Under the pieces are notes generated by a model. The model saw only the letters and a program-made list of their open reading frames with translations. It was not told the DNA's origin and did no database searches. A stretch of DNA of 24,989 nucleotides. It comes from Polyrhizophydium stewartii. Taxonomy: Eukaryota; Chytridiomycota; Chytridiomycetes; Rhizophydiales. The DNA is taken from contig JADGIZ010000116.1 of assembly GCA_027604665.1 (NCBI GenBank), positions 1 through 24,989 on the forward strand. The letters are read 5' to 3'. The position numbers and the translations under genes are program-made. This document shows, piece after piece, positions 4,599 to 8,545 of this stretch; position 1 is the stretch's first letter; every line of letters starts with the position of its first letter.

Positions 4599-5099
4599 GC
4601 ACATAAGTAGGTGGTATGGTCTATATATTCATAAGCCTAGAAAAGCTAATTAGGCATTCATTTAACTATCTGAGCCTCGGCAGGTTTGAATTCCTTATGA
4701 TATACCTACAATAGATAAATATTTTTACTGTTAAAAGGGGCGGTGCTGCCTGTTTTAATAAAAAGCAATCATATAGGTCATTATTAGTAGTCATCGTTCT
4801 AAGAGTATAGGTAGCCGAAATAACATTGGCAGCTTTATGTTAAAAACATCATCAGAAACATAGTAGGTTAGAGTAAAATATCATTGAGCCAAATCTGATT
4901 TATAATAATTAAACCGACACTGATTATTTAATAGATTGACTGCGAAGGCAGGCAATCACCCTCCGGTTGATTGTGAATAAACCTAGCTTTGTAATTATTA
5001 AGAAACTGTGACAAACTAATATATTAACCCTCTGTACTATTTTTTATTAAAGAGAATAAGTTTAAGTGGAAATTAAGATAGATCCCAAATTATTAAAAA

Positions 5100-5885
5100 A
5101 TGAAATATTTTCATCCTTATCATATTGTAAATGTGTCACCTTGGCCATTATTAATGAGTATAATAGTTTTAACATTAGGTTTAACTTTTGCAACTTGGTT
5201 AACTAATGGTACTAATGGTTATCAAGTTCTTATTACTTTAGCATCCTTTTGTTACGTTCTAATTTTATGGTTTAGAGATATTATACGTGAAGCTCAAGGA
5301 GGATTTCATACTAAAATAGTTCAAAGAGGTATAATAATTAGTTTTTAGTTATTTTTAATAACTGAAATTCTTTTATTTGCTTCATTTTTCTGGGCCTTTT
5401 TCCATTCTAGTTTAGCTCCTGCTATTGAATTAGGTAGTGTTTGGCCTCCTGTAGGTGTTACTCCAATTAATGCTTGGAACTAGCCATTATTAGGTAGTGT
5501 ATTATTATTATCTTCAGGTTTTATTTTAACTCACAGTCATCATGCTTTTTTAAGTGGACATAAAGATTTAGCTTTATTTAGTTTATTTTTTAGTATTTTA
5601 GTTGGTTCTTCTTTTGTTTATTTACAATTTAATGAATATCTTTATGCTGAATACGCAATTAATGATTCCGTTTTCGGTTCTACTTTTTACTCTTAGACTG
5701 GTTAGCATGGATAGCACATTATTTTTTCTATTGTATTTCTTATAGTCTCCTTTTTTCGTATGTATGTAGATCAATTTACCATAGAGCACTGCTTAGGGTT
5801 AGATTTTGCTATATGGTACGCTCATCTCGTTGATCTCTAGTGGTTATTCATATTTGTGGTTATATATTGGTTTGGAGGAAATTAA
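5100..5885 (+). CDS. cox3: Cytochrome c oxidase subunit 3
   Basis: This encodes COX3, a core membrane subunit of respiratory complex IV in the inner mitochondrial membrane. Translation from ATG 5100 to TAA 5883-5885 gives 261 residues, normal for the family. Recognisable blocks are [14 protein letters not shown] near the N-terminus, [12 protein letters not shown] with ELGSVWPP in the middle, LTHSHHAFL, and [10 protein letters not shown] followed by TGxHGxH and a C-terminal [17 protein letters not shown] occurs in frame at 5346, 5481, 5694, 5703, 5712 and 5838, all where hydrophobic residues are expected; leucine fits every one. Trp is always TGG. The last 20 codons (5826-5885) have a second, diverged copy at 6949-7020, so this C-terminus was probably brought in by the mobile ORF that follows. 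Codons from about 5690 on use more C and G at third positions than the first two thirds. No Shine-Dalgarno-like site is visible; the ATG follows an A-rich run. Confidence 0.97.
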
Positions 5886-5955
5886 TTTAGCATTTATTCC
5901 AACTATTTTCTAGTGTATAAATGTACCCTTTGAATCAGTATTAAGTAAATTAAAG

Positions 5956-6555
5956 GTGAATTATATAGAATACTTTGAGCATTTAGGTTCTAAATATACT
6001 AGGAAAATGATAATGGATAATTATGTCAAATCAAAAGGTATCTATATGTTTGTTAATTTAATAAATGAAAATTTTTATATAGGTTCATCAAATCAAATAG
6101 GTATCAGATTTGGGCAACACCTCAATAATTTTGATAAAAACTTAGGCTCTAAAAAATTTTATAATAGTGTTAATAAATATGGGTTAGACTATTTTCATTT
6201 TGTTATTTAGGAACTTTTACCTAGTGATTTCACTATAGAACAAATAAGAGAAATCGAGAACTCTTATATAGAACGTTTCCACCCAGCTTTAAATACTTAG
6301 GATACAGCTTTTCCATCGCTATATAATCCAGTAGGTGGCTCATCTGATAAAGTAAAATGTTTTGTATATAATATTTTTGACCATTCAATGATTGAGTTTG
6401 ATTCTCTTGTGGAATGTAGAATATTCTTAGACATTAGTGATTCAACCTTGAGACGCAATCTCAATTCCAATAGGTTATACTTAATTCATAACTCTTATTT
6501 AGTATCTAAAGATTTATCTAAATTTGATAGTGAAATTAAATTAGATGAATATTAA
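5956..6555 (+). CDS. GIY-YIG homing endonuclease (catalytic part, up to in-frame TAA)
   Basis: From GTG 5956 the frame runs 199 codons to TAA 6553-6555, with TAG leucines at 6208 and 6298. Motifs in order are GIY at residues 28-30, YIG at 41-43 followed by SS, an arginine at 51, and a probable catalytic glutamate at 101 in the ExxYIE...P.LN block. These are the conserved parts of GIY-YIG nucleases, which cut DNA to spread their own gene. Residues from about 133 to 195 (FVYN...FDSLVE...STLRRNL...YLVS) look like a NUMOD1-type helix-turn-helix repeat that binds DNA. The frame stays open upstream of the GTG into the cox3 3' end, in a different phase from cox3. No ATG precedes the GIY motif except at 6007, which still leaves the motif intact, so the true start is uncertain. 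The same frame continues after the TAA. Confidence 0.85.
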
Positions 6556-6948
6556 AATTAGAATGCAGTTAATTTATGTAATTTAGATGGAGTTGTGATA
6601 AAACAGTTCTATAGTATCAATGAATGTGCCAGATATTTAAAAATTGATCGAACTACAATAAAAAAATATCTACTGAAAGATGAACGTTATCTCAATATTA
6701 GGTTTAAACCATTTCAATCATTTGTAGATATTACCCTCGATCCAGGAGCGATTCAATTAATTATGGATAGGTTTCAAACTTAGCCTTATTATGAAGCTAC
6801 CTCTCTCAAAACGGGTGTAATTATACGTGATAAAAGTTCGGTAAACCTTATGGCACAATTATCTTGTTCTAGGGAGCCTTTTTATAGACATATAAATAAT
6901 AATACACTATTAAGAAAAGAATGGTCTATAAAAAAATATGATCAGTAA
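6556..6948 (+). pseudogene. C-terminal DNA-binding part of the GIY-YIG ORF, cut off by TAA
   Basis: After TAA 6553 the same reading frame stays open for 130 codons to TAA 6946-6948, with TAG leucines at 6559 and 6781. The peptide contains QFYSINECARYLKIDRTTIK, a clear NUMOD/helix-turn-helix repeat like the one upstream, and a third weaker repeat ending in SREPFYRHINNNTLLRKEW. Unbroken frame and family-like content say this was recently the C-terminus of the endonuclease. The TAA is therefore a young nonsense mutation, a sequencing error, or a codon that is read through. A separately translated protein is possible but no good start is visible. Confidence 0.7.
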
Positions 6949-7020
6949 TTTATCGATGTCTAGTGGCTTTTTGTTTTTGTAATTATCGAGCGGCTACGCG
7001 ATTGGTTCGGAGGTAATTAA
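6949..7020 (+). pseudogene. Displaced original cox3 3' end
   Basis: Directly after the endonuclease stop, the same frame reads F-I-D-V-L-W-L-F-V-F-V-I-I, then five foreign codons (6988-7002), then W-F-G-G-N and TAA 7018-7020. This parallels the current cox3 ending [19 protein letters not shown]. The leucine after V is TAG in both copies (5838, 6961). The foreign stretch gagcggctacgcgat is a GC-rich palindrome-like insert that replaced the tyrosine codon. The piece has no start codon of its own and is almost certainly not translated. Confidence 0.85.
6988..7002 (+). repeat. GC mini-element inserted in the cox3 relic
   Basis: The 15 bp gagcggctacgcgat interrupt the otherwise intact coding relic between isoleucine and tryptophan codons. 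gcg/cgc complementarity and GC-richness match the small palindromes elsewhere in the window. The insert keeps the frame. Confidence 0.6.
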
Positions 7021-7063
7021 TTTTCCTTAGTGATTTATATTGAATTTCAAAATTAATTTATTG

Positions 7064-7525
7064 ATGAGTTTTCTTATTATGTCTTTAGCTATTATATTTA
7101 TTATTTCTTTATTATATATATTAAGTTTTTGGTTACAACAAGGCGAACATAGTTCACTCAAATTAAGTATTTATGAATGTGGATTTGAACCTATAGGTAA
7201 TGCTAGAATGAAATTCGATTTACTTTATTGGATTATAGGTATATTTTATCTAATTTTTGATTTAGAATTAGTTTTTTTATTTCCATTTGGTTCAATTATT
7301 TTCAATTTTGATTCTTTTTATTATCTTTTTATATTTTTTGGATTTTTTCTTATTCTTACTTTAGGTTTTTTATTTGAATGGAAATCTAATGCTCTGTTTA
7401 TCAAATCTCAAATTTTAGTTTTGTTATCCATACCTTACCCATTAGCTTAGTTTGCAAGTTCGGTAATGATCGTGGAGGTGAACGCACCGCGGGGCGGGCA
7501 CGTCCACCTCGAAGAGTCCCGGTAA
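7064..7525 (+). CDS. nad3: NADH dehydrogenase subunit 3
   Basis: This encodes ND3, a small membrane subunit of complex I in the inner mitochondrial membrane. From ATG 7064, an N-terminal membrane helix is followed by YECGFEP at residues 37-43, FD at 51-52, LIFDLEL at 63-69, and two more hydrophobic helices ending in [14 protein letters not shown]. These are the standard ND3 landmarks. The usual family length (about 115-130 residues) is reached at TAG 7448, which would give 128 residues. If TAG is leucine, as in cox3, translation continues 25 codons to TAA 7523-7525 through a GC-rich hairpin with no ND3-like content. In-frame TTG 7040 is an alternative start, after TGA 7031; ATG 7064 fits family N-termini better. 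No other TAG occurs in the gene. The gene lies 43 bp after the cox3 relic on the same strand. Confidence 0.93.
7475..7510 (+). repeat. Stem-loop overlapping the nad3 3' end
   Basis: gaggtgaacg at 7475-7484 pairs with cgtccacctc at 7501-7510 in 9 of 10 positions around a GC-rich loop. It could be a GC cluster inserted at the gene end or an RNA-processing structure. It lies inside nad3 only if TAG 7448 is read as leucine. Confidence 0.55.
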
Positions 7526-8224
7526 TCAGGACTGCAATCGACTCCACTACCTTATCCTGGGCACCGGCTAATCACTTCTCTATACTGCTCAAATCAAGGA
7601 TGGTTATTGAATGACAGGAAGAGATCTATTAAAACTTTGTTGTGCTTCACTTCTCAGCTACCAAATAAGGATAAATGAGAATTCGATGATCGAGATGATG
7701 AACCATCTAAATTGATGTGTTATACGCGGTTAGACTGCGGCCTAGGCTGCTCAAAATGAGCGGACCGCTGAAGAAAGAAAAGATTCAATACAACCTGTTA
7801 GTCCGATGCTAGAAAAGGTATGTACCAAACAATAGTATTAATCATTTCATAAAAGCATGAGTGTCAGTTTACAGATGTTTATTGAAGCTTTATTTATTAA
7901 TTGAGTACTTTATGTTTCCTCTTATGGCTTCATGCTATGTTTGCCTGCCTTCAGGGAATTGGGGGGTTTGAACCTCATGCTTAGCCTGTCTTTTATATAT
8001 TATGTTATATCAAACCTACTTAGAACCATTATAGACGTGCTGTATCCGCTGCTAACCAGGATATCGTTGCTGTAAGAGGTTTGGCAGCGATTAGTGAATT
8101 CAGACCTTTGCCTCAACTATACTGATCAACTAAATCTAGAAGGTCAATTACGAACCTTACTTAGCAGCCATAATATGGCCATAAGATTTATTGATCGAAC
8201 TAGTTCGATGGATTCATGGTATTA

Positions 8225-8545
8225 TATGGATATGAACTAGTATATACTTATATTAGTAATAGATATAACCTAATATAACTAATGAATTATATAAAGAATA
8301 AAGATAAGCTAGACATAAATAGATTGGTGAGAATACAGATAATAACTAATGAAATAGACATCAGGATAAGCTAAAGATAATATCTAATATAAACCTTAGT
8401 AATTGATAAGATTATGATGATTTGGATAAAGTAGATAAGGTATAAGATACAATAATGGGTAATAAGATATAATGACTTAGAAGAGAATAGGGATTAGAAC
8501 ATAGATGTTAATAGAGAAATAGAAGGATGAAATGATTAGCATAGC
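8225..8545 (+). repeat. Purine-rich low-complexity block
   Basis: For about 320 bp the plus strand is dominated by A and G with T, and cytosine is scarce. Short words such as gataag, gataat and agataa recur irregularly. It looks like an old, decayed microsatellite or a strand-biased spacer. No frame stays open across it. Confidence 0.5.

Follow-up and report, generated by a model that had tools for sequence, protein, structure and literature searches.

Two diverged cox3 endings flank a GIY-YIG endonuclease frame in a probable fungal mitochondrial contig that reads TAG as leucine

Mitochondrial genes with exchanged C-termini have been described in several fungi. According to passages of a study of Glomus sp. 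DAOM-229456 (PMC3630166), the hybrid atp6, atp9, cox2 and nad3 genes of this fungus are associated with mobile ORFs, and in the case of atp9 a GIY-YIG ORF ends at position 1119 and the native end begins at position 1120 (Table 2 of that study). The same passages name atp9 of Rhizopus oryzae and cox2 of Mortierella verticillata as alike, and they tell of atp6 in Allomyces macrogynus, where a foreign C-terminus comes with an endonuclease ORF and the native end, located downstream, is identical to that of A. arbusculus. In Phlebia radiata, endonuclease ORFs lie near alternative 3' ends of the mitochondrial atp6 and cox2 genes, and in the part of PMC4019555 that deals with them the authors rate endonuclease transposition as likelier than horizontal transfer. 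A preliminary description of the DNA analysed here had invoked C-terminal substitution by mobile ORFs as a phenomenon known for other genes, and published cases do exist, including one with a GIY-YIG ORF (passages of PMC3630166).

The locus that we describe has an endonuclease ORF immediately 3' of a cox3 core with an in-frame ending, and a second, diverged ending just past this ORF. This layout matches that of the published hybrids and, by analogy, would represent a new case of an already known mechanism. As in the passages on Glomus sp. DAOM-229456, a gene core is followed by a putatively inserted C-terminus, an endonuclease ORF and a putatively displaced native C-terminus. Unlike in those passages, the host gene is cox3, the genetic code is code 16, the endonuclease is split by a TAA codon, a GC-rich repeat is found in the displaced tail, and a step in composition reaches upstream into the host gene. 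A. macrogynus likewise has a C-terminus with an endonuclease ORF and a native end downstream, and P. radiata has endonuclease ORFs close to alternative 3' ends; the genes concerned there, as far as those passages go, are atp6 in the former and atp6 and cox2 in the latter.

The window, that is, the whole stretch of DNA analysed, is an entire contig (C116) of 24,989 bases with a GC content of 35%, and it probably comes from a fungal mitochondrion; in six contigs of the assembly matched by DNA pattern, which are probably nuclear, GC around the match was 60-69%. A fungal source is suggested by chitin synthase matches of up to 4.0e-198 in the assembly, although 4 of 14 control genomes also gave matches to this family. 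All window features given below are on the plus strand. Read with code 16, cox3 extends from 5100 to 5885 (Pfam COX3, 1.1e-80 over residues 5-259) and contains six TAG codons read as leucine. One of these falls at the leucine of the HGLH motif, which is common to the animal cox3 sequences compared, and for this reason the reading of TAG as leucine is sound. We divide the gene into a 5' part that we take as resident (5100-5651), a 3' part before the duplicated stretch (5652-5825) and tail A (5826-5885), which is continuous with cox3 and was delimited by frame reading and by comparison with the second ending, tail B. The downstream neighbour is a nad3 frame (7040-7525; Pfam PF00507, 1.5e-21), which over 7397-7525 extends beyond the family match and across a GC-rich repeat, unless an internal TAG acts as a stop. 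A 33-base GC-rich repeat at 7480-7512 has 12 exact copies over ten contigs, compared with none for the reversed control; the contigs other than the window are C1, C2, C3, C4, C29, C61, C68, C361 and C432.

Directly after the cox3 stop, in the +1 frame relative to cox3, an endonuclease frame runs from 5886 to 6555 and carries a GIY-YIG domain (Pfam PF01541) above the curated cut-off (38.6 bits versus 22.6; 1.4e-9). This confirms that cox3 ends at 5885 and is followed by a GIY-YIG ORF. The first in-frame ATG past cox3 is at 6007. The claim that the ORF continues to 6948 held for the frame and the domain, but not for a single intact ORF: a TAA at 6553-6555 separates the GIY-YIG domain from a NUMOD1 domain (Pfam; 27.6 bits, cut-off 22.8) in the continuation of the frame (6556-6948), which itself ends with TAA at 6946-6948, so that the catalytic and NUMOD1 modules are not in one uninterrupted frame. 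Judged from these frames, the endonuclease gene is either divided into two parts or truncated. Owing to this split we do not claim an intact enzyme, and present endonuclease activity is doubtful. Two chains of the I-TevI catalytic domain (1mk0 and 1ln0) align to the frame (2.3e-5), with its GIY...YIG, an Arg (1mk0), a Glu (1ln0) and an Asn aligned to these chains; we take these to be the motif residues of I-TevI, presumably with the corresponding functional roles. The likeness to endonucleases of the I-TevI type thus resides in a catalytic domain with aligned motif residues, whereas the frame found here is free-standing, lies outside any detected intron and has its NUMOD1 part severed by TAA. 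It is also stop-free backwards into cox3 for 110 codons (5554-5885), for which a permutation of synonymous codons gave 0.03 to 0.05, a value too weak for conclusions.

Tail B (6949-7020) starts at the base after the last stop of the endonuclease frame and reads FIDVLWLFVFVIIERLRDWFGGN, then TAA. A second cox3 ending had been proposed at this place. Local alignment to the cox3 tail bears this out, with a best score of 74, whereas 1000 dinucleotide-shuffled versions of 5886-7040 reached no more than 45. WFGGN is common to tails A and B, as is the codon at which TAG encodes leucine, in agreement with the earlier view that they encode the same kind of peptide, and none of the other cox3 endings in the alignments compared ends in WFGGN. 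The peptide given for the second ending is indeed cox3-like, but the portion elided in the preliminary description contains ERLRD. These residues are encoded by an in-frame net gain of 12 nt contributed by a dispersed GC-rich repeat, GAGCGGCTACGCGA (6988-7001), with copies elsewhere in the window and in the assembly. One-mismatch copies occur at two other places in the window (0.01 expected), and the pattern with one free base was found at 36 places in the assembly (12.86 Mb, 690 contigs), compared with 13 for the reversed control.

Joining CAT (5823-5825) to TTT (6949) in frame restores the motif HF(V/I)D; HFVD is present in four other rows of our cox3 alignment (A1) and in further cox3 alignments, and tail A has HL there. 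This speaks for tail B as the former continuation of cox3 at the insertion site. We consider it likely that a GIY-YIG cassette was inserted in cox3 together with an ending of its own, tail A, and displaced the host ending, tail B. From this layout we infer the cutting, the transfer with its direction and donor, the order of events and the use of tail A, as follows. A free-standing GIY-YIG homing-endonuclease cassette would have entered cox3 at the His-Phe codon junction near the 3' end, bringing a cox3 ending placed upstream of the endonuclease frame. The endonuclease would cut cassette-free cox3 at the His-Phe site. Break repair would then copy the cassette together with its flanks, the template coming from a donor lineage that uses the same code; the tract so copied may reach from ~5652 to 7020. 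The host cox3 would then read into tail A up to the stop at 5885, and the former post-site ending would be stranded as tail B on the far side of the endonuclease. The GC-rich repeat would also have entered tail B, and with a TAA now between the GIY-YIG domain and NUMOD1 the cassette looks partly decayed.

Alternatively, 5826-6948 could be, or until not long ago have been, an intron that encodes an alternative ending of cox3 in its 5' part, with tail B as the real last exon. The join of 5825 to 6949 in frame, with its restored motif, would fit such an arrangement, as would the coding constraint in both tails (see below) and the frame-preserving nature of the net gain in tail B; moreover, alternative C-termini with endonucleases have been proposed for atp6 and cox2 of P. 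radiata (passages of PMC4019555). However, the spliced cox3 would have ERLRD near its C-terminus, and an RNA family search (Rfam) of 5000-8300 at E<=1 gave no match, an argument that is weak given that an interrupted cox3 region on another contig, C4, was equally blank. A search of the whole window for introns at E<=0.5 found none, the only RNA match being the small-subunit rRNA; in other parts of C4, two group I introns were detected. On balance, we regard the intron as improbable.

The divergence between the tails was compared over 20 codons each, including the stop and setting aside the 12 nt of the repeat. Over this short length the tails are 73% identical, with differences at 16 of 60 sites. 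The many third-position differences reported earlier are there (9/20), but they are joined by differences at 7/20 first positions, and second positions do not differ at all (0/20), an outcome with a probability of 0.0004 if changes were position-blind. For the larger part of their separate history both tails were therefore coding, a pattern more readily explained by the union of two functional genes than by a local duplicate in decay. If the cox3 ending had been duplicated in tandem within its own lineage, the endonuclease ORF having landed between the copies and the far copy being in decay, this would account for the shared WFGGN and TAG leucine and for a third-position GC of 4/16 in both tails. 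Nevertheless, a decaying copy should alter second positions too, and since most of the divergence arose while both tails were coding, we consider such a duplication quite unlikely, in line with the earlier reading as a transfer between lineages.

Other mitochondrial-like pieces were found in the assembly. A diverged second cox3 (L006) lies on the minus strand of C4 (18470-21636). It contains TAG codons and small breaks of the frame, a GIY-YIG remnant lies between its exon pieces, and the reading ends abruptly at YYWHF, the position that the cassette occupies in the window. Pieces of cox1 are present on C29, C98 and C4 and, weakly, on C61. Together with the shared 33-base repeat, these scattered pieces suggest that the mitochondrial genome is very large or that the sample contained two mitochondrial types. 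A score scan of C4 and the other collected loci for the tail of the C4 cox3 revealed none above chance (the first 1721 bases of C4 are N). Scanning the assembly with a first tail DNA pattern gave 11 places (12 for the reversed control), two of which correspond to tails A and B; translations of the remaining nine did not resemble a cox3 tail. A second tail pattern gave one place, as did its reversed control. If a single cell line or culture contained two types of mitochondria, their mtDNA could have recombined with no part played by the endonuclease. Such an event could draw on the diverged cox3 and cox1 pieces of C4 and on the GC-rich repeats common to C4 and the window, but it is very improbable, as the C4 cox3 is only 43% identical over the longest matched piece, breaks off before the ending and is accompanied by no tail above chance, and the endonuclease lies exactly between the tails.

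Returning to the insertion of a cassette with its own ending, we searched viral contigs and genome contigs for a close cox3 relative, with or without the ORF, and found none among them. In the viral contigs, the cox3 protein query gave 5 candidate stretches and the A1 query gave 157, none of them a relative. Seven cox3 loci from genome contigs were rejected as close relatives, one (L057) being animal-mtDNA-like and six bacterial-titled. Alignment A1 takes in four of these seven (L057 to L060) and leaves out L063 because of stop codons, as well as the shorter matches L061 and L062. The contig of L057, filed under an Emticicia MAG, shows by eye an animal mitochondrial row (part of cox1, cox2, atp6, cox3 and nad3) and looks like a contaminant. 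Compared with three other cox3 tails, tails A and B match each of them at 10-11 of 17 residues, and in every comparison tail A outscores tail B by 3 points. The two tails have their WFGGN and TAG leucine in common, and hence the more distant donor proposed in the preliminary description looks unlikely; judging from these residues, any donor of the cassette was probably a relative that shares the code.

We also examined third-position GC along the locus. It is 5% in the cox3 5' part (8/174 codons) and 7% in nad3 (9/121, over 7040-7420), and rises to 25% in cox3 5652-5825 (13/53), with 4/16 in each tail and 16-18% in the two endonuclease pieces (38/216 and 20/125). For C- versus T-ending codons, a permutation test that took the break scan into account gave p 0.010 for a break near 5652. 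Fisher tests, done after this break had been seen and with the cox3 5' part plus nad3 as reference, gave 9.4e-5 for 5652-5825, 0.017 for tail A and likewise for tail B, 3.6e-5 for the first endonuclease piece and 0.0012 for the second. The composition step is present at both edges of the tract 5652-7020. Since third-position GC is raised across the cox3 3' part, the tails and the endonuclease, the imported tract may span ~5652-7020, tail B included, and cox3 5652-5825 would be a co-converted flank. Most simply, the flanks would have been copied along with the cassette during break repair, and possibly tail B too. The step may nevertheless not mean foreign origin, because third-position GC is uneven elsewhere too (5-24% in four pieces of cox1 from C29 and C98, 7-32% in five pieces from C4), and because the second endonuclease piece did not differ from the reference in C- versus T-ending codons alone (p 0.12). 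More tentatively, and with less likelihood than the cassette insertion as such, the whole ~1.37 kb (5652-7020) could have been imported as one piece from a lineage whose cox3 was already hybrid. Transfer between lineages of an element with its own ending, as proposed earlier, is partly supported by the hybrid layout and the coding-constrained divergence; the assignment of 5826 as the foreign and 6949 as the native copy was not established, considering the near-equal match of the tails to other cox3 and the raised third-position GC in both.

Among the titles, abstract openings and passages of the open-licence literature that we searched there was no cox3 case of such an ending swap, and passages of PMC6221350, PMC7951889 and PMC5626475 contain no such case. 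The present locus would extend the range of gene endings exchanged by mobile endonucleases to cox3 and to a mitochondrion with TAG as leucine, and the cox3 3' end would be unsafe for phylogeny in such genomes. The composition step, if borne out, would reveal the extent of co-conversion within the host gene. If the whole tract was imported as one piece, neither tail would be native, both homing flanks would be kept as a record of co-conversion, and a two-step chain of transfer would be readable within one gene.
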